From positions 1 to 23,010 of the IMG/VR virus record IMGVR_UViG_3300031539_000331: DNA of 23,010 bases. One strand, 5' to 3'. This DNA is from a virus. Below are positions 1,281 through 22,389 of this stretch, piece after piece; positions within the stretch are counted from its first letter, which is position 1, and every line of letters begins with the position of its first letter. The translations under genes were made by a program, and so were the position numbers. A model generated the notes under the pieces. It was given only the letters and a program-made list of their open reading frames with translations, was not told where the DNA came from and made no database searches.

Positions 1281-2291
1281 CTAGATGGTGAGCACTTCGG
1301 CTTCGGTATTCAGGATCGCATCGCACCGACGAATCGGGATACGCATAAAGGTCGTCAACGGACTTCCTCCGACCTCGCTGTAACTCAGGGCAAGATTGCT
1401 CTTGACCTGGGCCTGCTGCTGCAAATATTCAGCAATAAGCCTATTGCAGTAGAACGCCGCCTTGCCCATACCGAAAGACGGAATTCTGTAGTACATTTTG
1501 ATCATCGTCGGAATAAGATCCACCACCGTTGCAGAGAGTGCCGACGTGTCAATGTTGGCGCCTCTTACGGCATACCGCCAATCTCTGACCGTAAGTCCCA
1601 ATTTCCACTGATAGTGAGTCCGGTAACCTTCGTAATGCCCAGGAGGGGTCTGATCATCGTCAAGAGTTACCTGCCCTTTGTCTTCGTGTTTGAAACCCGC
1701 GGTTGATCCTTTCGGATAGATCCCGTGTACGGTGTTCTCTCCCCATACGATAAGCCAGATTGATGTTTGGACTGCACCGCTGGCCGCTCCATAGGAATCG
1801 ATACAGTTGTACGCCGTGATAGTCGGTAGTTCCGCTCCGTATTGAGGATACCTCGGCATGAGTCCGGTAAACTGTTCCGGATTGGTTGCTTGCGTAGCGT
1901 AAAAGATCCCCGTTGCCATTTGCTGATTCATGCCCTCAAGGTGCGCCTGATCTTCGGAAAGTCTCCAGGCTGACGTATTGCCATTGAGGTCTGCAAGATC
2001 CTTGTCTACTTCGGCGTATGCTTCGAGCATTCCGCAAGTGTCCGTGATCTGCGTGGTTTGGCTTTTTGTGGGTTGGACACCATAATTGAGTTTACGCCAG
2101 GTGGCGGTCGGCAGACCCGTCCTCACGGTGGTTTTATGACCAGTCGGCAAATTGCCTTCAATGGTCACCATGTCCGTAAGAACTTCGTTGGTTTTTGCCA
2201 ACAGCTCAATAATGGCACCAATTTTGTTATCCGATCCCATCCTGGAAGCCAGGTCCAAGTAGGTAACGGCATTCGTTCCAAGGGTAGCCAT
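1281..2291 (-). CDS. Major capsid protein
   Basis: This 336-aa protein follows the scaffold gene and precedes the cement gene, the standard place for the major head protein. The ATG at 2291 is preceded by GGAGGTAGCAT. The N-terminal region reads TYLDLASR...KIGAIIELLAKTNEVLTDM. A conserved-looking segment follows with LPTATWRKLNYGVQPTKS and AEVDKDLADLNG, and a C-terminal block has RDWRYAVRGANID. These match BPP-1-type podovirus capsid proteins, expected to have the HK97 fold. The sequence is complete and has no odd features. Confidence 0.88.
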   Translation of the reverse strand: MATLGTNAVTYLDLASRMGSDNKIGAIIELLAKTNEVLTDMVTIEGNLPTGHKTTVRTGLPTATWRKLNYGVQPTKSQTTQITDTCGMLEAYAEVDKDLADLNGNTSAWRLSEDQAHLEGMNQQMATGIFYATQATNPEQFTGLMPRYPQYGAELPTITAYNCIDSYGAASGAVQTSIWLIVWGENTVHGIYPKGSTAGFKHEDKGQVTLDDDQTPPGHYEGYRTHYQWKLGLTVRDWRYAVRGANIDTSALSATVVDLIPTMIKMYYRIPSFGMGKAAFYCNRLIAEYLQQQAQVKSNLALSYSEVGGSPLTTFMRIPIRRCDAILNTEAEVLTI

Positions 2292-2308
2292 ATGCTACCT
2301 CCAGTTGA

Positions 2309-3106
2309 CTACTGCTTCGCTGGATATACTACATCGGCCAATTCTTGATTGCTTCTCTGACCGATAGGTGAGGATTCCGTACGTTCATTCTTCCCATCCA
2401 CGAATGGATGTTCCGTGATGAGCTTTCCCATCTTGATGAACATTCGGATTACTCCCGGATGATTCCCCAGTCCGGAAAGATCGAAAAGCTTTGCTGTTTC
2501 GGCATCGGCAAACTGAGCGAATCCTCGCTCCATGAATCCCTTTGCCTGCGACCAGTCGGCTCCGTATTCCTTCGCCATTGCTGTCTCGACTTCGGCCATG
2601 GTAGTTTTCACCACCTTCATATCATCCGCCAATTGCTTGTAATACCATTGGTGGACGTTCTTGACCTGATCGAGCGTGAGATTAAGCTCATGCGCTTTGG
2701 CAAGGAACGCCTTCTCGGTCGCCTCGTCTTTCGTGATCCCTCCGGGTAGTTCTACCGGATCCAGTTTGTAGTCTTCAGGTTTGTCAGGCACGCCGATTGA
2801 TTTCCGATAGCGTACCTTTTCCTCGTCCGTGGCCTTTTCGCCAGGTAGGACAATAGCTTTACCCAGCTTCCCTTCAAGCTCCTTGTAGCTTTTCCCCAGA
2901 TCCCCGATGGTCTGGAATTTGGTCAAGCTCTGGTCTTCCTTCAGGTCTTGCGGTAGCTGTGCCATCCATGCAGGCTGTAACTTGGTCGCACCTTCCGCCA
3001 ACGGCGTGGTGCTTTCAGTCTTCTGCGTGGTGAGGGTTGTTCCCCCCCCCTGTCCACCAGCCTGCGGGTTGTCCGTTCCCGGGCTCGCAGCTTGTTCGTC
3101 TGCCAT
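2309..3106 (-). CDS. Scaffolding (head assembly) protein
   Basis: A 265-aa soluble, charged protein directly upstream of the capsid gene. The Pro/Gly/Thr-rich N-terminus (about residues 1-45) is followed by a long, mostly helical, Lys/Glu-rich part with DKPEDYKLDPVELPGG, a signature often seen in phage scaffold proteins (IGVPDKPEDYKL). AAGGAAG precedes the ATG at 3106. It should direct procapsid assembly and leave or be degraded. Codons 20-22 contain a run of nine Gs (see findings). Assignment rests on composition, motif and position. Confidence 0.8.
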   Translation of the reverse strand: MADEQAASPGTDNPQAGGQGGGTTLTTQKTESTTPLAEGATKLQPAWMAQLPQDLKEDQSLTKFQTIGDLGKSYKELEGKLGKAIVLPGEKATDEEKVRYRKSIGVPDKPEDYKLDPVELPGGITKDEATEKAFLAKAHELNLTLDQVKNVHQWYYKQLADDMKVVKTTMAEVETAMAKEYGADWSQAKGFMERGFAQFADAETAKLFDLSGLGNHPGVIRMFIKMGKLITEHPFVDGKNERTESSPIGQRSNQELADVVYPAKQ

Positions 3107-3107
3107 T

Positions 3108-3386
3108 TTACACTTCCTTACTCGTTACTTTCCTCCAGACTTCTATAGCCTGGGCCGATATCCGAGGTGAAACTCTATGCATGAGAAAAAACTTGGCATA
3201 ATTGTTTAACGCTTGCATGCCTTCTCCGGTCACCTCTTCCAAAAACTTCCAGTCATCCAGCAGAACCCCGAGGACTATTTGTCCGTCGGGGCTGCTGAAT
3301 ACGTTGTCGAACGCCGCATCAATTGCCTTCAGTCGGGCTTCTACTTCCTTCCGTCGTGCTTCCGGTCCGTCAAGTTCCTCGGGCAT
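3108..3386 (-). CDS. Small Bbp19-like phage head-module protein
   Basis: A 92-aa helical protein. The segment AFDNVFSSPDGQIVLGVLLDDW resembles the phage Bbp19-type pattern (F-x-S/T-P-x-G-x-x-V-L). The ATG shares its first base with the upstream TAA (TAATG), so translation is coupled to the preceding gene. The molecular role is unknown. In BPP-1-like phages such genes lie between portal and scaffold, as here. Confidence 0.7.
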   Translation of the reverse strand: MPEELDGPEARRKEVEARLKAIDAAFDNVFSSPDGQIVLGVLLDDWKFLEEVTGEGMQALNNYAKFFLMHRVSPRISAQAIEVWRKVTSKEV

Positions 3387-4027
3387 TAGGTTCTAGGAAT
3401 CTCCTCCCAAGTGAAGCCGAAGAAACCGATAACAACGGTCAGCGTGTAGATGAACACGAAACCGCCGGGCGGGATGATTACCGAGCCATGCATGTCGATA
3501 ACCTGGGGAGTGGTTCCAAATAATGCGCCGTTGGTAAACGCACTGAGACAGGGCATGATCACCCTCAAGAGTCCAGCACCCGCGCCGGCCACCAGGGTAG
3601 CCGCACCATCAGCCAATCCGGTTGCGGCGTTAGCATTCCCAAGATTCAGCGGATATGTCACCAGCGGTGTGGTATGGGTTGCAATACCGGCAGCCGAATA
3701 TCCACCGCCAAGTCCTATGAGGCCGGCCCCGGCGGGCGCAACGGAAAGAGCGATGCCGACCTGGCGAAGAGCCAGATTCATGTTGTTCCCTGCCGGATTC
3801 GAAAGACATAGCCCGGTATAGGTCGTAGCCAGCGCGATTGTCGTGGTCGTCGCTGCCTGGCTGGCCGCACCATACAACAGGTTCCGAAAGGACTGCTCGT
3901 AGAGATTCCCGTGGAGCTGAGATATGATCTCATCGTTCTGTTGCCCCACCCTCTTAATGCCGATTTGTGTGCCATCAGGCATCCTCAGATTGCGATCGCT
4001 CTGAGCCATTCTCGTAACACTACTCAT
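3386..4027 (-). CDS. Hydrophobic Ala/Gly-rich phage structural-module protein
   Basis: The protein is 213 aa. After a polar first 45 residues (MSSVTRMAQSDRNLRMPDG) it turns Ala/Gly/Thr-rich with long apolar stretches (SVAPAGAGLIGLGGGYSAAG; ATLVAGAGAGLLRVIMP) and a C-terminal segment FIYTLTVVIGFFGFTWEEI. GGAGGAATCTT precedes the ATG. Proteins of this composition occur beside podovirus portal and capsid genes and may be minor virion or membrane-interacting proteins. I cannot assign a function. The only upstream non-coding stretch (4028-4075) holds nothing but the SD and a small CGCC/GGCG hairpin. Confidence 0.8.
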   Translation of the reverse strand: MSSVTRMAQSDRNLRMPDGTQIGIKRVGQQNDEIISQLHGNLYEQSFRNLLYGAASQAATTTTIALATTYTGLCLSNPAGNNMNLALRQVGIALSVAPAGAGLIGLGGGYSAAGIATHTTPLVTYPLNLGNANAATGLADGAATLVAGAGAGLLRVIMPCLSAFTNGALFGTTPQVIDMHGSVIIPPGGFVFIYTLTVVIGFFGFTWEEIPRT

Positions 4028-4075
4028 AAGATTCCTCCGTGCCCGCCAGTGGCGAGACTTGATTTATTTAAGCGG

Positions 4076-4213
4076 TCAACGACCGCGTTTCTTCCTTCCG
4101 GTCTTCAAGGACTGTCCCGTCTTACTCTGCGCTATCCGCGCAGCCTTTCCTTTGCTCGCCCCTCCTCTTCGGAGAGCTGTATAAACCTTGTGCACGCGAC
4201 TACCTTTGGGCAC
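4076..4213 (-). CDS. Small basic phage protein (PKGSRVHKVY family)
   Basis: This 45-aa protein starts at the GTG at 4213, preceded by GGGAGGGCAAC. A longer in-frame extension is just portal sequence in another frame. The sequence reads PKGSRVHKVYTALRR, then GKAARIAQSKTGQSL, ending in a Lys/Arg tail. Very similar short proteins are encoded next to portal or terminase genes in many phages; their function is unknown. It overlaps the portal 3' end by 14 bases, indicating coupling. Confidence 0.8.
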   Translation of the reverse strand: MPKGSRVHKVYTALRRGGASKGKAARIAQSKTGQSLKTGRKKRGR

Positions 4214-5867
4214 GTTGCCCTCCCTTCGCCAGTCCGGCCAACATCGAGTCCGGCTGCATCGGCTGGTTAAGCTTGTCCACGTTCCCGGCAAGTAGTTTCT
4301 GCTGCTCCAGCTCCATCGCCTGTTTCTGTTGAGCCTGAATAGCCGCCTGCCTTGTCTTGCGGATCGCCATTACCTGCGAGAGCTCGCGGATAACCTTCTG
4401 TGGAATCCCCGAGGAATCCATGCCGATCCGGGCGAGCTCATCCAGGTCTGCGTTGTCCAGGAAAGCTGATTGTCCGTTCGGATCGAGCTCTGCCATCTGT
4501 TTCAGGAACTCCACGCCGGCCTGTACTCCTCTTGTCTGGTGATATCGTTTCTGGGCCATGGCGAGCGGGCCTTGAAACTCTACGTGCACCCGGCCTCCGG
4601 ACATCAGGCTGGGCGGTGGCGGCGGCAGGATTCCTTTGCGGTCACAAATCTTGTAGGCCCTGTCGATCAACGGGATAAGGCATTCGCTATTCAGCCTCCC
4701 GATGGTCGCTCCCAGTACAGCGGCCTTTTCACCCTGACGCTCGATAATCTCCGTTGCCGTATAGTTGCCCTTCTCGAGCTGTTCCATGAGTAAGAAAATA
4801 CGCGTCCTGAAGTTCTCGCGGATTTGATCCCTAATCGATTCTTCCTGGTCTTTGCCTATGGGATAATTCTGGAATAGATTTATGGCTTCGATACGATCCC
4901 GGCTGCCCGTGGGATAGTAGTTGTATCCACGTGGGACTATCCGCTCCGTGCCCTTCATCGAGTCGGGTACATTCAGCGGCGGCTCAACGGCGAGCTGGGC
5001 GGCCTTGAGCATGGTCAAGCCGACCTGATTGATTCTGAAAATATCGTTTATTGCATCGGCGGCTGGAGATCGTCCGTACGCCTCATCGCTGTTTTTCCGC
5101 CAGCGCCACGCCAGGTATGGGAATTCGTCGTATCCGCCTATATCGATAATCTGACTGTGATCTTTGTCCACATAAACGGAAGCGAATTCCTTATTGATAC
5201 CATCGATCTTTCCCGGCACTCTGTCGGATCTTGGGAATACCGCGTGAATGATATGCGCCTTGGCATAAGCTGCCGATTTTGCTGCATCCTGTCGTTGCTG
5301 TGGGAGCTTGTTCCCCCACATCTGATAAGCCGCACGGTTTGTCATCACGTAATCGCGGTACAGTGTATCCACCATGCCGGTTTTGGATTCGGCGAGATAA
5401 CATTCCTTGATATGCCGGGTGGAAAACAGCATTCGGTCGGATACGATTTCATCCTCGGTAAACATCACGGCTGTACCGATCGAGCCGGCATCCATGAAAA
5501 ACTCTGAAATCGATTCGTAGAAGTTAGAACGGGAAAACTCGGCGTATAGTATTTCTTCGTTTTCTTCCAGCCAGTCCGCTACGTCTTCCAGGTTTTGCTG
5601 GCTCTTGTCCTCCATCACCAGCCGGAACCATCGATCTATCTGATTCACAAGGGCGCCGAGAAGTCCGTCCACCATCAATTGCAGACACGCAATCGCCGTA
5701 CCGTCATATGTTTTGACGCTGGGTTTCTGGCCTTCGGTGGCATCGATATCCCAAAAACTCCGCCTGGGAAGCACAAGGTCGTTTATGTCCTTCCATAGCG
5801 GCTCCCAAGGTTTCCGCATTTGTTTGAGAGTAGATAAACGATGTGTGATCTCGGCAACTTCGATCAA
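4200..5867 (-). CDS. Head-tail connector (portal) protein
   Basis: A 555-aa protein of T7-gp8-like connector type. Evidence: an RLSTLKQMRKPWEPLWKDI start, LPRRSFW, a DAGSIGTAVMFTEDE segment, GRSPAADAINDIFRIN, and a long Gln/Glu/Met-rich helical C-terminus (AAIQAQQKQAMELEQQ). The portal ring sits at one capsid vertex and carries DNA during packaging. The start is a TTG at 5867 overlapping the previous stop (TTGA), with AAAGGTGA as SD; no ATG gives a complete N-terminus. It is the first large gene of the head module. Confidence 0.9.
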   Translation of the reverse strand: MIEVAEITHRLSTLKQMRKPWEPLWKDINDLVLPRRSFWDIDATEGQKPSVKTYDGTAIACLQLMVDGLLGALVNQIDRWFRLVMEDKSQQNLEDVADWLEENEEILYAEFSRSNFYESISEFFMDAGSIGTAVMFTEDEIVSDRMLFSTRHIKECYLAESKTGMVDTLYRDYVMTNRAAYQMWGNKLPQQRQDAAKSAAYAKAHIIHAVFPRSDRVPGKIDGINKEFASVYVDKDHSQIIDIGGYDEFPYLAWRWRKNSDEAYGRSPAADAINDIFRINQVGLTMLKAAQLAVEPPLNVPDSMKGTERIVPRGYNYYPTGSRDRIEAINLFQNYPIGKDQEESIRDQIRENFRTRIFLLMEQLEKGNYTATEIIERQGEKAAVLGATIGRLNSECLIPLIDRAYKICDRKGILPPPPPSLMSGGRVHVEFQGPLAMAQKRYHQTRGVQAGVEFLKQMAELDPNGQSAFLDNADLDELARIGMDSSGIPQKVIRELSQVMAIRKTRQAAIQAQQKQAMELEQQKLLAGNVDKLNQPMQPDSMLAGLAKGGQRAQR

Positions 5868-6145
5868 AATTTCACCTTTGCCTTTCCGCTGCGTCTTGCC
5901 GGCGCTGTAAGCATCGTCTCTTCCGGTACTGTGGCCTGTTGCGTGAGCAGGCTCCGGGCTGTGCCTTTGTTCGACAGAATGGACAGGGCTAGCGCTGCGG
6001 CCTTTTCGTCCTGGGCTACCATGGCTACAGCCTCATCCTTGGTGGTAACGCGAAGGGCAGACTTCAGCTTCTTCCAGGTTTGGTCGGGAGCAGCGAGAAT
6101 CAGGTCTGTTATGGATTGGCTTGAATCGGGAACCATATCGGACAT
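5864..6145 (-). CDS. Hypothetical 93-aa protein preceding the portal
   Basis: The start is ATG at 6145 with GGAGGGTCT upstream. The upstream in-frame ATG at 6187 has no SD and lies in the leader. The protein has a helical middle (DQTWKKLKSALRVTTKDEAVAMVAQDEKAAALALSIL, given here only as position 20-56) and a basic C-terminus (APARRSGKAKVKF). No family recognised. It is translationally coupled to the portal (TTGA overlap), so a role in portal or head assembly is possible but unproven. Confidence 0.75.
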   Translation of the reverse strand: MSDMVPDSSQSITDLILAAPDQTWKKLKSALRVTTKDEAVAMVAQDEKAAALALSILSNKGTARSLLTQQATVPEETMLTAPARRSGKAKVKF

Positions 6146-6301
6146 AGACCCTCCGGGAAATAAAAAAGCACACAAGACCGCAGCCATATCGTGGCTGTCG
6201 ATCCTCTGCGCTCCGCCGGGTCTTCCGGTAGGTTCGCCTTGGATATTACTCGCACATAATCTAACTTAAATTTACATCAAATCTATATCACTTGTCAAGG
6301 G
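6146..6301 (-). other. Leader region without genes before the head operon
   Basis: 156 bases without a credible gene. It contains the promoter candidate at 6269-6298 and, downstream, CCGG/CCGG and CAGCCA/TGGCTG stem-loops (the latter around 6186-6202). A TTTTTT tract follows some 13 bases after the second stem, too far for a standard intrinsic terminator. The SD of the 93-aa gene ends the region. Confidence 0.5.
6269..6298 (-). promoter_or_regulatory. Sigma70-like promoter for the head operon
   Basis: On the minus strand TTGACA (6298-6293) is followed after 18 bases by TAAATT (6274-6269), in an AT-rich stretch just after the stop of the 86-aa gene. This is a perfect -35 with a moderate -10. 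It lies where the AT-rich accessory block ends and the structural genes begin, so it could give those genes independent transcription. No start site is shown. Confidence 0.5.
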
Positions 6302-6562
6302 TTATTCTTTCGGGTCTTCTCGTAAATTTACAATATGACTCTGTTGCATTTCAGGTGGCGTATTAAAAAATCCCATAATCGGGTTCCACCATGGAATCAA
6401 TTCATGAAACTTGTAAAATCCTTTCTTTTCGCATTTTCTGTTTTCCAATCTGACTGTACAAGGGAACCCGCTTATTTTGCCTTCTGCGATCCTATCCCTT
6501 ATACAATCAATTTGATCCTTGCCATATTCTTTTTCTGCTTCCGAAATAGTCATGGAAATCAT
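6302..6562 (-). CDS. Hypothetical 86-aa protein of the accessory block
   Basis: The ATG at 6562 has GAGAGGTATAAAA upstream. The sequence (ISEAEKEYGKDQIDCIRDRI, then GFPCTVRLENRKCEKKGFYK and an aromatic PWWNPIMGFF) matches no family I know. Two spaced Cys are present but no clear metal site. The DNA is AT-rich compared with the portal and capsid genes. It is the last gene of the block inserted between terminase and portal. Confidence 0.7.
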   Translation of the reverse strand: MISMTISEAEKEYGKDQIDCIRDRIAEGKISGFPCTVRLENRKCEKKGFYKFHELIPWWNPIMGFFNTPPEMQQSHIVNLREDPKE

Positions 6563-6564
6563 TT

Positions 6565-6762
6565 TTATACCTCTCTTGTTTCATTCTGTATAATATTGTC
6601 CTCCGGTAACTGAGACTTGAACGTCTCCCTGTCCACATGCTGCGCCCGGATAATCCGCCCATCGCGCATGGTGAAGAGCAATCCTACCTCACCATACTTG
6701 CACGTGAGCAGGCGTACCTTGAGCCAGTCTACATGTCCGTCCGGCTTGATCGGGTTTTCCAT
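6565..6762 (-). CDS. Hypothetical 65-aa protein
   Basis: The ATG at 6762 shares its A with the upstream TAA (TAATG). The protein has a DWLKVRLLTCKYGEVGLLFTMRDG core of alternating beta-like strands and an acidic tail. I recognise no family. It belongs to the tightly coupled run of small genes between the MerR-like gene and the head operon. Confidence 0.7.
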   Translation of the reverse strand: MENPIKPDGHVDWLKVRLLTCKYGEVGLLFTMRDGRIIRAQHVDRETFKSQLPEDNIIQNETREV

Positions 6763-7088
6763 TATTGCCCCAGCCCCTTAATATCATTTTGTATACATGG
6801 GAAGCTTTTTCGTAATTGCAATAAATAATTTAAATACTTGTTTTTTATAATATAATGCGGCAGATTTAATACATCTGCCCATAAGTAAAAATCAGTACTA
6901 TTGAAAAAAGATTCTGCGGATTCTCTGTCCTTTTTTTGTTCACACTTTAATGGAAATGCTTTGCCTTGTTCTCTTCGTATTCTATGCACCTCTTCCTCAC
7001 CTTCCATGCATTGCTTATTGCATTCTAATAAATCTTCAAAGGCTTGATTTATTACTGCGGCAGCTAGTTGTTTGTATCCATCTTCCAT
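6762..7088 (-). CDS. Phage protein of the AxxxQAxEDxxE small family, 108 aa
   Basis: The N-terminal YKQLAAAVINQAFEDLLECN and the later SAESFFNSTDFYLWADVLN resemble a widespread small phage family (AIVxQAVxDY ... ExFFxSxxF). Its members occur in accessory and early phage operons with no known function. The start overlaps the preceding stop (TGATG). The C-terminal half is rich in Leu, Lys and Asn and AT-rich in DNA. Confidence 0.72.
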   Translation of the reverse strand: MEDGYKQLAAAVINQAFEDLLECNKQCMEGEEEVHRIRREQGKAFPLKCEQKKDRESAESFFNSTDFYLWADVLNLPHYIIKNKYLNYLLQLRKSFPCIQNDIKGLGQ

Positions 7089-7321
7089 CAGTTCCCCCTG
7101 TCCAACAAGTTGATCGTGCTGCTCACCGGCTTAACGAGTTGTTCCTCGTACCTATGGCACCGATCCTTCGTGAGGAACACGGGCGGCCAAAGTGCGGCAG
7201 TGCCGATCTGTCCTTGTGGACCCGGAATCGCCGCACAGGTGGGCGGGTTGCACCGGCAGAGCCCTTGATCTGCGGTTTGTGGGTCACACCATTTACAGGT
7301 CAAACATCTTGGTTCGGACAT
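7088..7321 (-). CDS. Small cysteine-rich phage protein
   Basis: 77 aa, with AAGGAGGCCCT before the ATG. The Cys pattern is CLTCKWC near residues 6-12, CRCNPPTC near 22-29, and a later WPPVFLTKDRCHRY. This matches a small phage family with C-x2-C ... G-x-C-R-x-x-P-P-T ... W-P-x ... C, thought to bind metal (zinc or an iron-sulfur cluster). The binding is inference from the Cys spacing. It overlaps the MerR-like gene by 22 bases. Confidence 0.75.
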   Translation of the reverse strand: MSEPRCLTCKWCDPQTADQGLCRCNPPTCAAIPGPQGQIGTAALWPPVFLTKDRCHRYEEQLVKPVSSTINLLDRGN

Positions 7322-7806
7322 AGGGCCTCCTTGAGTTTATGATTGATTGTTTCGTTCATGGATTTACATATATTATCTATATTAATCGTAATGGACACAA
7401 TTGCGTTTAATAACACTTTGTCGTCGCTAATACATCCATCATCATCTCTAGTAAAGCCATACCATTCCTTTCTATCACTATCCCATGTAATACATAATTC
7501 ATGGCATCTTTCTTCTATGGCTTCTTCTATTAAAAATAATAGAGTTTTAGTAAATATATTCAATGTTCTCGAATGAGTTAAATTCAATATTTCTTTTATT
7601 ACAGCCGCCATATATAATTCAATAAACCTATATGGTCTTGCGTTGCCCCTACCTTTTTTCTCCCTTGTGTCTGGTCCTAATATTCCGGCCTTTATCCATT
7701 CCCGAGTTCTTTTATTTGTTACTCCAAGACATTCATGAAATTCTTTAGGAGTAAATATCACCTCTTTTGTATAATATTCATCATATCCGTCTTCTATTAT
7801 TTTCAT
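7300..7806 (-). CDS. MerR-like helix-turn-helix protein
   Basis: The start at ATG 7806 follows TAGGAGAAGT, which overlaps the terminase stop. Residues about 18-60 (FTPKEFHECLGVTNKRTREW, then IKAGILGP and YRFIELY) read as a MerR/excisionase-type winged helix: T-x-K-E ... x-V-T-x-R-T-x-x-x-W-x-x-x-G-I. The rest (about 100 aa) is helical with Cys, Glu and Ile but no known effector domain. It probably binds DNA and may regulate the accessory block or late genes. The gene is clearly more AT-rich than its neighbours, suggesting acquisition. A DNA-binding role is likely; its target is unknown. Confidence 0.75.
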   Translation of the reverse strand: MKIIEDGYDEYYTKEVIFTPKEFHECLGVTNKRTREWIKAGILGPDTREKKGRGNARPYRFIELYMAAVIKEILNLTHSRTLNIFTKTLLFLIEEAIEERCHELCITWDSDRKEWYGFTRDDDGCISDDKVLLNAIVSITINIDNICKSMNETINHKLKEALCPNQDV

Positions 7807-7813
7807 ACTTCTC

Positions 7814-9325
7814 CTATAACCCATGCCTAAGCGGGTCGTAAATCTCGTCTCTGCCTTCTAGGTTCAGCGGGTCGTGTTCCTTGCCCTGCGGAAACACGGC
7901 ACTGAAATCCGGGTCCATGATTCTCGATAGATCATCCAGCATGTCATCGTGTACGCAGTAGGGAAATGCCAGATATTCATCGTCGATAAATTGCCTTGTG
8001 AGATCCACGGTCACTCCGTCATATTGAACATATGGAGTGTTCTCTGGAATATAAACACGTCCCTGGTTAAACGGTGGAACGAGCCTTCTGATCCGGTCAT
8101 CTTTACCGAGCGGTCCGCCAAGCGGCGTAATTCCGAATCTATAATTGTCTCTGTTCATCCTATCTTGAAAATGCTCAATATCGGCCTGCATCCCATACTG
8201 CTCGTACCCAACATCTCGAGGTCTGTACCTTTGGTGCAGGCTGAAAAGGACGTTCGCCTTTTGCACCAGGCTTAGCCTGTCCCTTATCCAGTGCAGTATA
8301 TAGTAATTTCTATCAGATCCAAGTCCCATTACAATAAACACAGTATAGTCGTTGTTCTTCTTTTTCCCGCTTGCCGGATCCACCAAGATGTAAATATTCA
8401 ACCCGGTGAATCGGTCGGCTTTCCAGTAGCGCAACCATGCTCTGTCGAATCCTTGTAGATTCTCATGGACGGGATCCATAAAGAGCTGAGCACTTGCGAT
8501 ATATGGCCCCATGTCAGCTATCTTTTTGGCAAGTTCTTCTCGCGTGCCCATCCATGGCTCACCATCGAATTTATTATTCTTTGTCGCCGTCCATATTCTG
8601 GGAACAAGTATTTTATTTTTAACTATGTATGCATGAGCATCATTAAAATGCCATGTTGATCCTACGCCCCGCCTTCTTCCACCCCGGACACCAAGATTAA
8701 GGCTATACAAAAACGCGTCTGTGGTTTTAGTGAGCATTCCCTCTGTACGCACAGTATCCAGAGTAACAATATCCTCATAATGTACGTCTGTTGAGTGCTT
8801 ACTTGTTGGCTGTCCATCTGTCAAACCATAGGCCTCAATGGTTGATTCTTTGGGATTGCCCTTACGTTTAATAATTATTCCGTCGTCTTCTGACCATTTC
8901 GGCGCTTCCTTTTTGGGATTCTGCCAGAATATATCCGGCCATAATTCTTTGAGCTCTTCATTATTCTGAAGCTCTTGCTTTATCTGACGCAAGAAACTCT
9001 TTGCGATCGGACGTACATAGCTTAGAATGAGATACGTTCGCTCGGGATCATGGATCAAATTCCATATTATCCCGGCGAATGTAATTATCGTGCTCTTGTA
9101 TCCCTCTCTCCACCATAAATCCAAATATCCGTCGGGTGCCGCCTGGTATTCTCTGCAACGTGCATATACCCATTCATGATCGGCATCTTCACGATGCAGG
9201 ACATAACGCAGGAAAAAGAACAGATCCATCTCGGCTAGTTTTCTTACCGCATCCTGCCTACATCCGTCCCTTGTAGCCTGCGCCAAGATACGCCTATACT
9301 GTGCATGGGTCTGTTGGAGTGTCAT
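7814..9325 (-). CDS. terL: Terminase large subunit
   Basis: A 503-aa packaging motor/nuclease. Visible motifs: Walker A variant REGYKST at 73-79, Walker B VHYED at 181-185, and RNase-H-like nuclease Asp residues in ILVDPASG (D316), NNDYTV (about D326) and the C-terminal HDDMLDDLS (about 465-473). It cuts concatemeric DNA and pumps it through the portal. It overlaps the upstream small-subunit gene (ATGA), as expected for a terminase pair. It is complete, of usual length, with no missing catalytic residue. Confidence 0.93.
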   Translation of the reverse strand: MTLQQTHAQYRRILAQATRDGCRQDAVRKLAEMDLFFFLRYVLHREDADHEWVYARCREYQAAPDGYLDLWWREGYKSTIITFAGIIWNLIHDPERTYLILSYVRPIAKSFLRQIKQELQNNEELKELWPDIFWQNPKKEAPKWSEDDGIIIKRKGNPKESTIEAYGLTDGQPTSKHSTDVHYEDIVTLDTVRTEGMLTKTTDAFLYSLNLGVRGGRRRGVGSTWHFNDAHAYIVKNKILVPRIWTATKNNKFDGEPWMGTREELAKKIADMGPYIASAQLFMDPVHENLQGFDRAWLRYWKADRFTGLNIYILVDPASGKKKNNDYTVFIVMGLGSDRNYYILHWIRDRLSLVQKANVLFSLHQRYRPRDVGYEQYGMQADIEHFQDRMNRDNYRFGITPLGGPLGKDDRIRRLVPPFNQGRVYIPENTPYVQYDGVTVDLTRQFIDDEYLAFPYCVHDDMLDDLSRIMDPDFSAVFPQGKEHDPLNLEGRDEIYDPLRHGL

Positions 9326-10501: not shown

Positions 10502-10768
10502 TCACTCCTCCTCCCTAGCCCGTCGAATAATCGCCCCCGCGGCCTTCCTCGAGACATCGTACTTTTCCACGATCATCTGCACCGCCTCACTATGCGGCAG
10601 GCCCAGGCAGTTGTCCTGGATCCAGCGTATCTTCTCAGGCGGCCACATCGTGCGGTACGTGCTCTTGTTGCCGGTGCTCCACCTTTTGTCATAAGTATCG
10701 CGCCGCAGGAATGCAGCATCACCGTAGAGGCTCACGATGTGCTTGTCTTTGGGCTGCTCTACTCGCAT
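10502..10768 (-). CDS. Small HTH-containing DNA-binding protein, 88 aa
   Basis: The ATG at 10768 overlaps the C5 methyltransferase stop by 10 bases; GAGGTCGAGCG serves as SD. The first half is polar with several aromatic residues. Residues about 45-85 (PPEKIRWIQDNCLGLPHSEA, VQMIVEKYDVSRKAAGAI) form two helices resembling the HTH part found at one end of phage HNH nucleases, but no H-N-H motif is present. It could be a free DNA-binding domain or a remnant of a homing-type nuclease. Confidence 0.7.
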   Translation of the reverse strand: MRVEQPKDKHIVSLYGDAAFLRRDTYDKRWSTGNKSTYRTMWPPEKIRWIQDNCLGLPHSEAVQMIVEKYDVSRKAAGAIIRRAREEE

Positions 10769-11769
10769 CGCTCGACCTCGGCTATCGCCTTGAAGATGGG
10801 GTACGCTTGTTGTGGCGATACACTGTTCCCGAGCGCCCTGATTCTATGTCCGTCCATCCGTCCTCGAACCCCATGTACCATTCGCAAAAGTCTGGAGCGA
10901 TCGTCCCACCAGCGGCAGTAGGCAAATCCACTCCCTGATTCCTCCTCCGTTCTCGTTCCTTGGCCGCTCCCTCCGGTGTTCGACTCCCTTTCATGCCATC
11001 CGCCGCTCGAAGAGTCGGTAGCATCTTGGCTACTTGATCTAACCCCAGATGAGCTTTCTTCCCGCTTGGTCGAATGAAATGCCCCTTGTATGGAATCAGT
11101 CTTTCCGGAGGATTCCCCCCACCTCCTACTGTCAAGGTAGGGAGCAATTTTGCTATCATCCCGATTGATGGACGTATCGCAGCTCCCTCTGATTTCGCTT
11201 TCTTGTAACTTGGTCGCCGAGGATCTCTTCCCGCATATTTCGCCTGTTCCATATCCGCAGGGGTTGCCATGCTCGCCGTCAAGGTGGGCAACATAGAACA
11301 CGCGGTATCGTCTGTGATCGGCACCGAGTGCTGCAAGTGGATACACAAGCGGTGGGAGAAACGTGTAACCTTGAGCTTCCATACGAGCAAGCCATTCCTC
11401 GATCGCCACGCCGTCCTCAAGACTAAGGATTCCAGTAGGATTCTCTGCCATGATCCATTTGGGTAGAAACAATTCAACGACGCGAGCAAACTCCGGCCAG
11501 AGCCAGCGGTCATCGCTTCGGCCTCCTCGCTTCCCGGCTGTACTTGCTGGCTGGCATGGTGACCCACCGGAAATAACGGTAACTGATTGTTCAACTTCGT
11601 CCCCCTTGACATCGTGTATATCCTCGATCCGCCGCACGTCCGGCCAGTGTTTCGCAAGCACCTTCAGGCAATACGGATCTTTCTCTACCTGGAGCACCGT
11701 CTCGAAGCCAGCCCACTCGGCAGACAAATCAAGACCTCCCACTCCGCTGAACAAGGATATATGCGTCAC
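10759..11769 (-). CDS. C5-cytosine DNA methyltransferase
   Basis: 336 aa from a GTG at 11769 (GTGA overlap; AGGAGG upstream). Motifs in order: I LFSGVGGLD (6-14); IV with catalytic Cys in GGSPCQP (68-74); VI MAENPTG (107-113); VIII DHRRYRVFYVA (about 150-160); X ALGNSVSPQQAYPIF (near the C-terminus). The enzyme methylates cytosine in phage DNA, usually against host restriction. The target-recognition part (about 165-300) is low in complexity, rich in Ser, Gly, Glu and Arg, and coincides with a second long reading frame in the same DNA. No cognate restriction gene is seen. Recognition site unknown. Confidence 0.9.
   Translation of the reverse strand: MTHISLFSGVGGLDLSAEWAGFETVLQVEKDPYCLKVLAKHWPDVRRIEDIHDVKGDEVEQSVTVISGGSPCQPASTAGKRGGRSDDRWLWPEFARVVELFLPKWIMAENPTGILSLEDGVAIEEWLARMEAQGYTFLPPLVYPLAALGADHRRYRVFYVAHLDGEHGNPCGYGTGEICGKRSSATKLQESEIRGSCDTSINRDDSKIAPYLDSRRWGESSGKTDSIQGAFHSTKREESSSGVRSSSQDATDSSSGGWHERESNTGGSGQGTRTEEESGSGFAYCRWWDDRSRLLRMVHGVRGRMDGHRIRALGNSVSPQQAYPIFKAIAEVERCE
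10782..11513 (-). CDS. Nested frame inside the C5 methyltransferase gene (LPTLT-repeat protein)
   Basis: A 243-codon frame lies entirely inside the methyltransferase gene. Its ATG at 11513 has GAGGAGG 8 bases upstream. The protein begins TAGSGRSLLASLNCFYPNGSW, has LLVWKLKVT, three (M/L)LPTL(T/R) segments, and ends with APDFCEWYMGFEDGWTDIE. These features match stand-alone phage proteins found beside C5 methyltransferases (GRxxLxSL ... CYLTWKxK ... LPTPTASD ... WLMGFPxGWTDL). Both frames therefore look conserved. Expression is not proven, and function is unknown. Confidence 0.55.
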   Translation of the reverse strand: MTAGSGRSLLASLNCFYPNGSWQRILLESLVLRTAWRSRNGLLVWKLKVTRFSHRLCIHLQHSVPITDDTACSMLPTLTASMATPADMEQAKYAGRDPRRPSYKKAKSEGAAIRPSIGMIAKLLPTLTVGGGGNPPERLIPYKGHFIRPSGKKAHLGLDQVAKMLPTLRAADGMKGSRTPEGAAKERERRRNQGVDLPTAAGGTIAPDFCEWYMGFEDGWTDIESGRSGTVYRHNKRTPSSRR

Positions 11770-12149
11770 CCCGCCGCCCTCCTGCTCTTCGCCTGCGACG
11801 CCGGCACACCGAGCCGTCCCATCTCGACCGCCATGTCGAGACCTCGTGCATAGTTCGCCTGCATCCGGACCCACCCGGCGCGGAGATGGATGTTCTCCGT
11901 GTTCAGCCGATCGTTTTCTTCTTTGAGCGCGTGGCATTTGACTTTATAGTACGCGAGCAATTCCGCCTGCCGACCGTACCGCTCGCGCATCATGCCGCGG
12001 AGCTCGTGCTTGACGATGTAATGCCGCCAGTACGGACGTGCCGCTGCCCATGCCGTGAGCACCAGAAGCGCGTCGACGATGTCCCGGGCGTGGAGCTGGA
12101 CGGCGACCCAGAGTTCCTTGAGTATGCCGACGGCGAGGGAGTAGATCAT
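11766..12149 (-). CDS. Hypothetical protein with apolar segment and coiled coil
   Basis: 127 aa from ATG 12149 with AGGAGGAGG upstream (inside a 12-codon reading frame). Residues about 24-38 (IVDALLVLTAWAAAR) are apolar and may lie in or against a membrane. Residues about 60-95 (ELLAYYKVKCHALKEENDRL) have heptad spacing typical of a coiled coil. No family recognised. Resembles small phage accessory or spanin-like membrane proteins only in outline, so no function is given. GTGA-coupled to the methyltransferase. Confidence 0.7.
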   Translation of the reverse strand: MIYSLAVGILKELWVAVQLHARDIVDALLVLTAWAAARPYWRHYIVKHELRGMMRERYGRQAELLAYYKVKCHALKEENDRLNTENIHLRAGWVRMQANYARGLDMAVEMGRLGVPASQAKSRRAAG

Positions 12150-15589: not shown

Positions 15590-16281
15590 ATCTTAAACTT
15601 CCAGGGTACTCCAAGTGTAATTTTTTTAGGGATTTCCTTACTTTTATTCCATAATTTATTTAAAGGAGTGTCGATTGTATCGTATACTCGCAATTCCAAA
15701 ATATCGTACAAATTTAAAATAAACCCTCCAACTTTTCTCTCAATTCCGTCCATCCCCTTTTCTATTACTTCAAAAGTAGGATATTGATTTTGCTCGTTTA
15801 ATTTTTTCACCGTAGAAAAAAACAATTCATCTGTATTTGTGAAAATCGCCATGTGAGTATGAGTTCTTTCAACTTCACATCCGCAGCATTTATATTTATG
15901 CGTGCATCCATCACCATCTTGTTCTTTACAGCTTTTCCATAAAAATATTAAATAGGCGATTCCTTGACCTTCATAAAGAATGAACCACCCTTCTCCACCC
16001 GGACGATTGCCATCATAGGTTTCTATCGCAAAATCACAGCCTGCATTTTTTATCCAACTTGGGCGTCTTTTCTTGTATTCAATTCCGCTCTCTGATTTAT
16101 CAAGTCGAACGAGTCGAATATCCCATCCTTTTGCTTCGAGTTCAGGATTCTTTTCATAACTGACGGCATATAAATGTGCCCCAGGTTCTAGAATGGCGAT
16201 CTGTTCTCGAATCATTGCTCTCTCTCCCGCATCCAGTCGTCCATCTTTGATATTTTCACGCTTGCTGTATTTGGTTGCCAA
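15586..16281 (-). CDS. Unknown 231-aa protein coupled to the MT-A70 methyltransferase
   Basis: Start set at TTG 16281, which has AAAGGTGGG upstream; GTG 16299 is in frame but lacks an SD. Either way the 5' end overlaps the methyltransferase gene by 26-44 bases. The sequence has [55 protein letters not shown] and a Cys/His cluster ([20 protein letters not shown], about 125-145) that could bind zinc. No nuclease motif is clear. The DNA is AT-rich. It could be a methyltransferase partner or an antidefence protein; I cannot decide. Confidence 0.72.
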
Positions 16282-17269
16282 GGACTTCCCACCTTTCACT
16301 ATGTTGGTTGCGGCTGAACAGTTCTAAATATTTTGATTCTTCGGGAAGCATATACCATCCCTCAATTAGATCGAAAAAGAATTCCGGCTTTTTACTATGT
16401 GCTCCCTTCTCTTCTTGATAGACGGACTCGATTTTCTTATCAGGCGAAGGAGGAGAAAGTTTCCCTTTCGTCCCGATCAATAGCAATTCGTGCCGGCCTT
16501 TCAACCATTTACCCATTGTCGAAGAAGTCGCCTTTATCTTGTCCCAACAGATGTTTGTTTTGTATTCGAAGCCCCATCCGCTCATCACCTGAAGAGCTTC
16601 AACAAGCTTTGGGTTGGTAGCCCATAGGAACAGCACCGCATTTTTGTCAAAATAGTCTTTAAGTAATATTCCTTCGATCTCATAATTAACGATCTCTTCG
16701 GCAGTCAGGGTCGGATATCCTTTGATTGCTACATCTCCGAATTGCGCGAAATCATATTTCCATGGGGGATCGGCATAGATGACAGGATATTTTCCGGGAG
16801 ACGGAATTATCAGGATGGTTTCGGAAGGAATGCGACTGAGGACTGTATTCAAGCCAGGAAGCCGGATCTTTTCTTTCAATCCTTCCAGCGCCTCCCAGGT
16901 AAAGCCGTCGTGCAGACGGCGCCAGCGATGAACCTGTACCTTATCTGTGCCGAGATCGGCGTAGGTAGTGTCAGCTATGGCACTGGTTGCAACTTGTAAC
17001 CGGTGGTATTGTTCGCCACCCTTCGCCTTCGGCATCCCCTCCATCAATCCCGCAGCCTTCCAGTAGGCCAGGATCTCGCCCCAGTAAATTTCGTGCCGAT
17101 GTTCTTCGGATACATTCTTGATCGCCGGATGCTGTTTCATCATTTTGAGATAGCTGGCGAATTCCACCATCTCTTTCGGATCGGTGATCTTCTCAAGCAT
17201 TCCGGAAATCTTCTTCTCCAGCACGGCAGGGCTCATCGTCAATTCATACGGAATTAATTCTTGTCCCAT
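16256..17269 (-). CDS. MT-A70 family adenine-N6 DNA methyltransferase
   Basis: 337 aa from ATG 17269 (GGGGG 5 bases upstream); an in-frame TTG at 17281 lies at the end of the terminator. Residues 163-173 (VIYADPPWKYD) carry the catalytic DPPW. They are followed by VLFLWATNP, GFEYKTNICWDK, RHELLLIGTKG, KKPEFFFDLIE and [19 protein letters not shown], all standard MT-A70 blocks. The N-terminal 150 aa are helical and probably recognise DNA. It should make m6A in phage DNA. It is the first gene after a strong promoter and attenuator-like leader. Confidence 0.9.
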   Translation of the reverse strand: MGQELIPYELTMSPAVLEKKISGMLEKITDPKEMVEFASYLKMMKQHPAIKNVSEEHRHEIYWGEILAYWKAAGLMEGMPKAKGGEQYHRLQVATSAIADTTYADLGTDKVQVHRWRRLHDGFTWEALEGLKEKIRLPGLNTVLSRIPSETILIIPSPGKYPVIYADPPWKYDFAQFGDVAIKGYPTLTAEEIVNYEIEGILLKDYFDKNAVLFLWATNPKLVEALQVMSGWGFEYKTNICWDKIKATSSTMGKWLKGRHELLLIGTKGKLSPPSPDKKIESVYQEEKGAHSKKPEFFFDLIEGWYMLPEESKYLELFSRNQHSERWEVLGNQIQQA

Positions 17270-17281
17270 ATTCCCCCACAA

Positions 17282-20617: not shown

Positions 20618-20820
20618 GTATCCTTCCTCCTCAAGAAGTTTTAAGAAAGCGCCCCGGGGCGGCTGGATGTCAGGCGGGAAAGGAGGTCAAACCCGCCAAC
20701 TTAAAAGGGGGATGCTGCTGCCCCGAGGCTTAAACTGAGGAGGGTGCATCCCCCGTGCAACCTCCCTGGTTGTGCACTACTATGTTCCGGTTTTCGCCGA
20801 AGCAGGATAACCGGAAACCT
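20618..20820 (-). promoter_or_regulatory. Structured leader with four hairpins and anti-SD segments
   Basis: About 200 bases with no credible gene between array 1 and the truncated gene. Hairpins on the minus strand, 5' to 3': TTCCGGTT/AACCGGAA (20816-20785); GTGC-AACC/GGTT-GCAC (20777-20755); GGGGGATGC/GCATCCCCC (20754-20707); GGCGGG/CCCGCC (20697-20673); palindrome CGCCCCGGGGCG (20661-20650). The third loop holds CCTCCTC (20743-20737), an exact complement of the downstream SD GAGGAGG (20632-20626). The fourth loop holds ACCTCCTTT. This suggests control of translation by SD masking. Confidence 0.55.
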
Positions 20821-20875
20821 CCGTGCCTCGCCATGCCTTGCCAGGCCAAGCCTGGCCATGCCTGGCCTCGCCATG
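20821..20875 (-). repeat. CNNGG pentanucleotide array 1 (11 units)
   Basis: Eleven contiguous 5-base units of form CNNGG on the minus strand, starting 3 bases after the stop of the ParB-like gene. The C and GG are constant, and NN varies (AT, GA, CA, TT, CT, AA, AC). No frame is preserved because 5 is not a multiple of 3. GG-N3-GG spacing could also support two-layer G-quadruplexes. Confidence 0.9.
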
Positions 20876-20878
20876 TTT

Positions 20879-21562
20879 CTATCCTAAATCCATCTCATTC
20901 AATGCGTCGCGAAGCCGTACCAATTCTTCGACAACCTGCGGATTGTCCATATTGATGCTGTCGGTTTCGATCAGCTTATTTAGCTGACGCAGCAATAGAA
21001 CCTGTGACTGTCCGGGTAGCATGTCCATTGCCTCGGCCTGCTTCGGTGTAACTACTTTCAGATGATATACACAGCGCTTCAAAGGGATCTTTCCCTCCGG
21101 CCCTTTTGCATATCGCACCTTGCCGACTTTTGTTTGCAGAATCTCCTTGATGCGCTCGACGGTAATACCGAGACTTGACGCTATCGCATTTTCTGAGATT
21201 TTGAGCTGAAGCCCTTTGAGGATTGCCCCGGTTTTTTCCGCTCCCTTGATGCCACTGCCGTGTCGAGCATTCAACCGAAGCGCGTCAAGATACATTTCTT
21301 TTTCACTTGAATATTTGCGAGCAACAACCTCAATTTCTGCATCGGGACCAAAGACTCGCAAATACATTCTTTCCCTATGTATCCCATCAACGATACGCTT
21401 TGATTTTTCATCGATAAGTATGTTGGGGAATACTTCTCCGGCGTCTAATGCAAATACCATATCCTGCACATGAACACCGTCTACTTGTGATCTTGGATAC
21501 AGACCGAAATCCTCAATCAACTCACCAACCTTGATTTTCATAATCGTGTCAGTTGCTACCAT
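20879..21562 (-). CDS. ParB-like nuclease/DNA-binding domain protein
   Basis: 227 aa from ATG 21562 with AAGGAG upstream. Residues about 9-75 form a ParB/sulfiredoxin-like N-terminal domain, with LYPRSQVDGVHVQDMVFAL and the RIVDGIHRERMYL motif (DGIHR at 59-63, the G-x-H-R-x-x-A-type signature). Residues about 110-145 (ISENAIASSLGITVERIKEI) form a helix-turn-helix. A helical Leu/Glu-rich C-terminus follows. Phage ParB-like proteins act in partition, regulation or DNA modification; no parA is seen. It lies between arrays 1 and 2, so those could be its binding sites (inference). Confidence 0.8.
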   Translation of the reverse strand: MVATDTIMKIKVGELIEDFGLYPRSQVDGVHVQDMVFALDAGEVFPNILIDEKSKRIVDGIHRERMYLRVFGPDAEIEVVARKYSSEKEMYLDALRLNARHGSGIKGAEKTGAILKGLQLKISENAIASSLGITVERIKEILQTKVGKVRYAKGPEGKIPLKRCVYHLKVVTPKQAEAMDMLPGQSQVLLLRQLNKLIETDSINMDNPQVVEELVRLRDALNEMDLG

Positions 21563-21585
21563 CTAATTTTCTCCTTATGTAAAAT

Positions 21586-21635
21586 CCTCGCCTTGCCTCG
21601 CCATGCCACGCCACGCCTTGCCCCGCCTGGCCTGG
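21586..21635 (-). repeat. CNNGG pentanucleotide array 2 (10 units)
   Basis: Ten contiguous CNNGG units between the RAMP-like gene (stop at 21650) and the SD of the ParB-like gene. Variable positions include CA, GG, AA, GT, AT, GA. Unlike arrays 1 and 3 it is followed directly by the SD, with no extra hairpins. Confidence 0.9.
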
Positions 21636-21649
21636 CGGCCCCATTAAAC

Positions 21650-22204
21650 CTATTCCACAAGTTCCACCTTGAACTTTCCGAACGGACCGCGCTTCTCGAT
21701 CCGGTAATTGCCGACGCCGATGATCTGACCGGCGATATTCAAATGTTCTTCCACCTGTTCCGGCGTCACGATATCTGTATCGATGGACAGGGTGAGATAA
21801 CAGCCCCACTTGTCGAAACGCGGGCGCGAGCGCATGACCCCTTGCCGCTGGACAATCGCCCGGCGTGTATCGATTTTGTATTCTTTGAGCGGTTCGTCCG
21901 TTTCGGGATCAATCAAGATGCATAACTCATCCATATTGAAGACGGCGGCCTGGAAGACTGATATTGCACTTGCCTTCCCAACCTTTTTGTTTTTCAATCC
22001 GTTCAGAAGTGCAGAACGGAACGCTATGCTTGGTATACAGTAGTTGCCATCATCATCGAAATAGAGTCCGGCCGCCGCCTCTTCTTCAGGCGACGGTATG
22101 CGCTTCGTTTTTGGTCCTCTGTTTACCACCTGCATTTGCGCAGGATTGTGCGTCAGTAGGGAAAATATTCCCGTGACCTTGTTCTTGATTAAAATAAGGT
22201 TCAT
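21650..22204 (-). CDS. Phage protein with RAMP/Cas7-like sequence features
   Basis: 184 aa. The start is ATG 22204, preceded by GGAGGG; an in-frame ATG at 22219 lies before that SD. Residues 58-70 (IPSIAFRSALLNGL) recall the IPGSSLRGAL helix of RAMP proteins. Residues 124-133 (MRSRPRFDKW) and the glycine-rich 162-178 (IGVGNYRIEKRGPFGKF) recall the RAMP G-loop. The same blocks (R-x-R-P-x-F-x-x-W ... A-G-x-x-I-G-x-G-x-x-R) occur in a broad phage family of unknown function. No cas genes or CRISPR array are near. RNA binding is inference. Confidence 0.7.
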   Translation of the reverse strand: MNLILIKNKVTGIFSLLTHNPAQMQVVNRGPKTKRIPSPEEEAAAGLYFDDDGNYCIPSIAFRSALLNGLKNKKVGKASAISVFQAAVFNMDELCILIDPETDEPLKEYKIDTRRAIVQRQGVMRSRPRFDKWGCYLTLSIDTDIVTPEQVEEHLNIAGQIIGVGNYRIEKRGPFGKFKVELVE

Positions 22205-22298
22205 AATGAAACCCTCCATCTTTGCCGTTGTGTGCTACTCTTCCGGTGCCACAACGGCTTTTATTTGGTTCTCTCGAACCTTCCTGCAACGCAGGAAT
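22205..22298 (-). promoter_or_regulatory. Three tandem hairpins in the leader of the RAMP-like gene
   Basis: After array 3 come, on the minus strand: TTCCTGC-GTT-GCAGGAA (22297-22281), GGTTC-GAGA-GAACC with a GNRA tetraloop (22280-22267), and GCCGTTGTG/CACAACGGC with a 17-base loop (22258-22224). The SD GGAGGG follows. No gene is seen. The compact folded series suggests a regulatory RNA leader or a binding site for the encoded protein. Confidence 0.55.
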
Positions 22299-22367
22299 CC
22301 ACGCCACGCCTGCCTTGCCGTGCCTCGCCATGCCATGCCTCGCCGGGCCACGCCCAGCCTCGCCAGG
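22299..22367 (-). repeat. CNNGG pentanucleotide array 3 (14 units)
   Basis: Fourteen units, thirteen of 5 bases and one shortened to CAGG, starting about 20 bases after the stop of the upstream gene. Most units fit CNNGG; the variable pair is often GA, AT or GT. One unit (CTGGG) is exact in frame. The missing base in one unit shows tolerance to length change. Confidence 0.88.
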
Positions 22368-22389
22368 CCTCTTATATAATCCATAATCC

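Follow-up and report, generated by a model that had tools for sequence, protein, structure and literature searches.

The three arrays of degenerate CNNGG units in the viral DNA analysed here (the window, 23,010 nt of IMG/VR record IMGVR_UViG_3300031539_000331) are best read as guide-RNA genes of a VIPR locus that serve the Vipr protein encoded between them, a reading to which we give a probability of about 0.92. VIPR is an RNA-guided DNA-recognition system found mainly in phages and described in a 2026 preprint, in which the Vipr proteins are phage-encoded ancestral RAMPs that use small RNAs (PMC13142463). These vrRNAs flank vipr and consist of 9-16 YNNGG units with a constant GGY and a hypervariable NN; pairing with double-stranded DNA is through the NN dinucleotides, one target base being skipped per unit, and binding represses transcription (PMC13142463). 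Four observations place the window in this system, namely the arrays themselves, the homology and modelled fold of the Vipr protein, the linkage of such arrays to Vipr, and a recurrent ParB-like neighbour. The features of the locus are as follows.

22299..22369, minus strand: array 1, a putative vrRNA guide tract of 14 units that fits the published YNNGG vrRNA consensus
22221..22298, minus strand: predicted 3' tail of vrRNA 1, three adjacent hairpins in the RNA fold
21650..22219, minus strand: vipr gene, 189 aa, between arrays 1 and 2, for a predicted RAMP-fold guide-RNA-binding protein (phrog_4652, PDB 36pp, model fold)
21586..21635, minus strand: array 2, a vrRNA-like tract of 10 units (pattern match)
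21563..21585, minus strand: short leader of 23 nt that joins array 2 to the ParB-like gene and contains a ribosome-binding-like AAGGAG
20879..21562, minus strand: ParB-like protein gene, 227 aa, candidate vap (accessory) gene (phrog_1033 ParB-like, 6.6e-5; homologues beside Vipr)
20821..20875, minus strand: array 3, a putative vrRNA guide tract of 11 units (pattern match; candidate target motif)
20745..20820, minus strand: candidate 3' tail of vrRNA 3, with a further stem besides the hairpin TTCCGGTT...AACCGGAA (weakly predicted fold)

Three CNNGG arrays on the gene strand

All three arrays (CNNGG, or GGCNN) lie on the minus strand, as do the coding sequences of the genes around them, and the 11, 10 and 14 units counted in an earlier note made from the sequence alone were confirmed by pattern match, shuffles and profile scan. 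The pattern (CNNGG)4 has 23 matches in the window against 0 in 100 dinucleotide shuffles, and a tolerant profile scan scores the arrays of 11, 10 and 14 units at 42, 39 and 50, respectively, while shuffled sequence does not exceed about 12; the arrays are real, with a chance expectation of zero for all three. The same scan found no further independent array in the 23 kb window, its sole extra hit (score 13.9, plus strand, 20840-20873) being array 3 itself, which is partly palindromic.

Read 5' to 3', the NN dinucleotides are CT GA TG GT CC GA AT AT GA AC AA (A) GT GT in array 1, CA CA GG AA GT GT AT GA AA GA in array 2, and AT GA CA AT CA TT CT AA AT GA AC in array 3. The strict 5-base period claimed for the arrays fails in array 1, where 11 perfect units are followed by one 4-nt unit (CAGG) and then by CGTGG CGTGG. 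Such CAGG units interrupt the 5-base phase within or between arrays at loci L047 and L054 as well as at 22309-22312 of the window, and may be separators of overlapping or successive guides. It is also evident that each array starts shortly after a stop codon, as had been proposed, with gaps on the gene strand of about 20 nt (array 1), 14 nt (array 2) and 3 nt (array 3). No Rfam family was matched near the window arrays, and thus no known hammerhead ribozyme lies near them; neither promoter nor terminator signals rise above chance at the array locus.

The Vipr protein

The protein encoded between arrays 1 and 2 matches phrog_4652 (E = 9.7e-21), which is also the family of the Vipr of Escherichia phage SUSP1, whose gene adjoins SUSP1's own arrays. 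A phmmer search with the window protein alone found PDB 36pp, "SUSP1 Vipr protein" (E = 1.2e-5; BLASTP 1e-10), and the same entry was found by a profile of five relatives, SUSP1's included. An AlphaFold2 model from a 52-sequence alignment has a pLDDT of 90, and Foldseek and VIA-align both rank Csm3/Cas7-type RAMP subunits as its best matches, with Z up to 12.6 and nearly the full length aligned at about 10% sequence identity. Judged by its PHROG membership, the PDB 36pp hit and the confident model, the product of 21650-22219 is a Vipr protein with a predicted Csm3/Cas7 RAMP fold. Translation probably starts further in, at the ATG at 22204, which has a ribosome-binding-like GGAGGG upstream and is equivalent in position to the start of the homologue in L096, an IMG/VR contig from an uncultivated virus.

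Phage homologues of Vipr were found by tblastn in LESphi2, DSL-LC04 and Gordonia phage Trine; arrays adjoin the gene in all of them, and one scan for arrays recovers these as well as SUSP1's own. In Trine the array (L012:3310-3374) overlaps the annotated start of gp40, which suggests that this start codon is annotated too early. Single-protein pattern scans of IMG/VR returned no relatives of either Vipr or the ParB-like protein. In the Vipr tree, the window and L096 form a deep pair (support 100/99) outside the SUSP1-like (vap1) clade; the window Vipr is 71% identical to that of L096 and just 24-25% identical to that of SUSP1.

Arrays and Vipr across viruses

A blind scan of IMG/VR, made with the pattern (CNNGG)9 only, yielded at least 120 viral stretches, in which the gene was then sought with a Vipr profile. 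Among the array-pattern stretches listed, 87 of 120 carry a Vipr gene, on the strand of the array in 85 of the 87 and at a median distance of 63 nt, against 1 of 37 stretches in a complete IMG/VR scan with the mirrored pattern; the lone Vipr-positive control stretch carries a genuine array of 53 units. The mirrored scan is taken as the control for which the earlier note had called, and the blind re-finding of Vipr in most hits is independent support for the pairing of repeat and protein. Vipr accompanies 87 of the 115 variable-NN arrays (76% in the fetched stretch) and 0 of the 5 uniform repeats among the matches listed, and several of the Vipr-less variable arrays are near the end of the available DNA. 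Some caution is due because the first 80 array loci had themselves served to refine the Vipr profile, but the seed alignment alone gives the same count at those loci, 64 of 85 (five of the 85 being the window and four phages). At L192:9565-9829, an unbroken array of 53 units lies beside a Vipr gene, the published range being 9-16.

Because the arrays are tied to one protein family, on its strand, and vary at NN, they fit guide RNAs. The earlier note, which left the role open, had listed first recombination sites through which phages swap gene cassettes. The arrays do occupy successive gene borders, and the reversed order of vipr and the ParB-like gene in L096, together with its scattered arrays, indicates that the repeats could recombine. 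However, the strand agreement with Vipr and its presence with three quarters of the variable arrays, both among the matches listed, argue against cassette swapping, and the NN differences between units lower the identity available for recombination, yet suit a guide. We thus regard cassette swapping as very unlikely. The gene-boundary position that had been proposed stands as an address, the arrays lying in the intergenic stretches within and beside the VIPR gene group, but not as a role; in L096 they are also near the terminase genes.

The ParB-like gene

Homologues of the ParB-like gene adjoin Vipr in L096, L054, L130, L113 and L047 (six loci counting the window), and relatives also occur in two array loci without visible Vipr, which brings the total to eight array loci including the window. 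The loci that bear it are spread over several branches of the Vipr tree. Because it recurs beside Vipr in five other loci, the ParB-like gene is probably an accessory (vap) gene of the locus. DNA-binding vap genes are mentioned for VIPR types II, VI and VII (PMC13142463), and for this reason it may, by analogy, be one of these published genes. The window has no match to vap1, and the combination that marks type II, vap1 with a SUSP1-clade Vipr, is absent from it. Modelled alone, the ParB-like protein gave a pLDDT of 42 and an unusable model.

The position of this gene between two arrays, and its recurrence in array loci, would also fit arrays that are DNA binding sites of the ParB-like protein, either a parS-like centromere or operators. 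Only 6 of the 88 Vipr loci listed (window counted) have the gene, though, the repeats vary at NN, and vap1 takes its place at other loci with an equivalent class of repeat; such binding sites are very unlikely.

Array RNAs and their tails

The predicted tail of vrRNA 1 folds at -35.8 kcal/mol (z = -6.5), with no shuffle equally stable, and array 1 folded together with its tail gives z = -5.0. The evidence for a tail of vrRNA 3 is weak because z is -0.9 for the tail alone, a stability that is not significant. The leader behind array 2 leaves no space for a hairpin tail; since this array runs almost directly into the ribosome-binding site of the ParB-like gene, it could represent a leader that is processed, a guide that overlaps, or a tract without function. 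The tails of arrays 1 and 3 are not clearly conserved (best local match, p ~0.02), and no tail is clearly common to the window and L096.

Binding arrays and RNA structures had been offered as further roles, and in outline a protein-bound RNA element agrees with the VIPR reading, although the suggested G-quadruplex gains no support. Plain microsatellites, or RNA elements of the G-quadruplex or hairpin kind that do not serve as guides, would account for the G-richness and the predicted structure of array 1 with its tail, but have next to no chance of being correct given that C and GG are fixed while NN is hypervariable, and that the uniform microsatellites of this pattern all lack Vipr (5 of 5 among the matches listed).

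Guide sequences and candidate targets

Under the 1-nt-skip rule, array 3 reads ATnGAnCAnATnCAnTTnCTnAAnATnGAnAC. A search of about 85,000 genomes gave 8 exact 10-unit matches to array 3, and none was found for array 1 in the contigs of these genomes; a uniform chance estimate from the collection size is about 0.5 matches per array. Six of the eight are in frame, with the skip base at the wobble position, within FkbM methyltransferase genes (PF05050) at the motif I-D/E-H-I-H-F/L-L-K-I-D, and two of the array 3 matches cover all 11 units. The FkbM matches are cellular genes from unrelated phyla, with glycan-type neighbours in both contexts examined; since the matched hosts are unrelated, the likeness is one between the guide and a conserved protein motif. 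FkbM is a lead, a candidate target of array 3, and the match with so large a family may be coincidental.

Exact 9-unit searches of IMG/VR with all three arrays gave chance-like hits only, and no FkbM hit. In 297 genomes of the phylum of L146 (Smithella assembly), array 3 with 2 mismatches gave nothing beyond the known hit. Array 1 with 3 mismatches gave 9 hits in the same genomes, against 0 in a reversed control, of which six are in the predicted codon frame, but in different proteins judging by the local peptide; for array 2 there were 13 hits against 5 in the control. A population test of skip lengths 0-3, in which 338 guides were run against 1.2 Mb of retrieved sequence, showed no real signal; an apparent excess at skip 1 was rejected, most of it being due to loci that had been retrieved with guides of the window itself. 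Among 226 arrays, the first base of NN is a purine in 69% and TA reaches 0.62 of expectation. This usage fits codon positions 1-2; other causes are possible.

Comparison with known systems and proposed mechanism

The window carries tracts of 14, 10 and 11 variable YNNGG units near vipr, a RAMP-homologous Vipr protein, and, as a virus record, genes for terminase, portal-type connector and major head protein. Its structural module (1281-9325, minus strand) comprises major head protein, protease, head-tail connector (portal-type) and large terminase. There are also DNA methyltransferase genes of the MT-A70 and C5-cytosine types (16256-17281 and 10759-11937, both minus strand).

Similarly, the type II VIPR of SUSP1 (PMC13142463, PDB 36pp) is phage-borne, has a Vipr of the same family, gene-strand YNNGG arrays on both sides of vipr, and a minimal locus plus accessory gene. 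The accessory gene is ParB-like in the window and vap1 (phrog_5926) in SUSP1; an array lies between vipr and accessory gene in the window, unlike in SUSP1; the Y position of the repeat is pure C in the window and mostly T in SUSP1; and the vrRNA tails are not common to the two. L096 shares with the window Vipr, the ParB-like neighbour and many CNNGG arrays, but its order is ParB-like gene then vipr, the opposite of the window. At least five array regions lie among its vipr, ParB-like and terminase-region genes (1346-1405, 2004-2167, 2788-2867, 3573-3605 and 4885-4944). Vipr shares its fold with Csm3/Cas7, the class 1 CRISPR RAMP proteins, which bind guide RNA and oligomerise on it; in contrast to class 1 CRISPR, the window arrays are not CRISPR repeats, and no other cas family was found among the genes searched.

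By analogy with the published system, the arrays would be transcribed from the gene strand into small vrRNAs, and Vipr copies would coat the GGC positions of the repeat, as Cas7/Csm3 do on crRNA, to form a ribonucleoprotein. The NN dinucleotide of each unit would then pair with DNA, with one base of the target passed over per unit, and this binding would keep a target gene of the host or of a rival mobile element from being transcribed. The ParB-like protein would probably assist as a DNA-binding accessory.

Implications

VIPR has been known just since 2026, as a preprint, and this locus, found from a DNA pattern alone, belongs to a very new class, within which its accessory gene and the arrangement of its guides set it apart. 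One outcome is a simple way to look for new VIPR loci by their arrays; others are a divergent lineage whose probable accessory is ParB-like, and guides that can be read and whose targets are predictable and testable. It is a tentative and rather unlikely suggestion that the window, together with L096, stands for a VIPR lineage of its own, in which the accessory is ParB-like, the guides alternate with genes in the operon, there is no standard tail, and the guides are directed to conserved protein motifs (here of FkbM methyltransferases). If this is true, a single guide might serve to recognise much of a gene family, since it ignores the wobble base.
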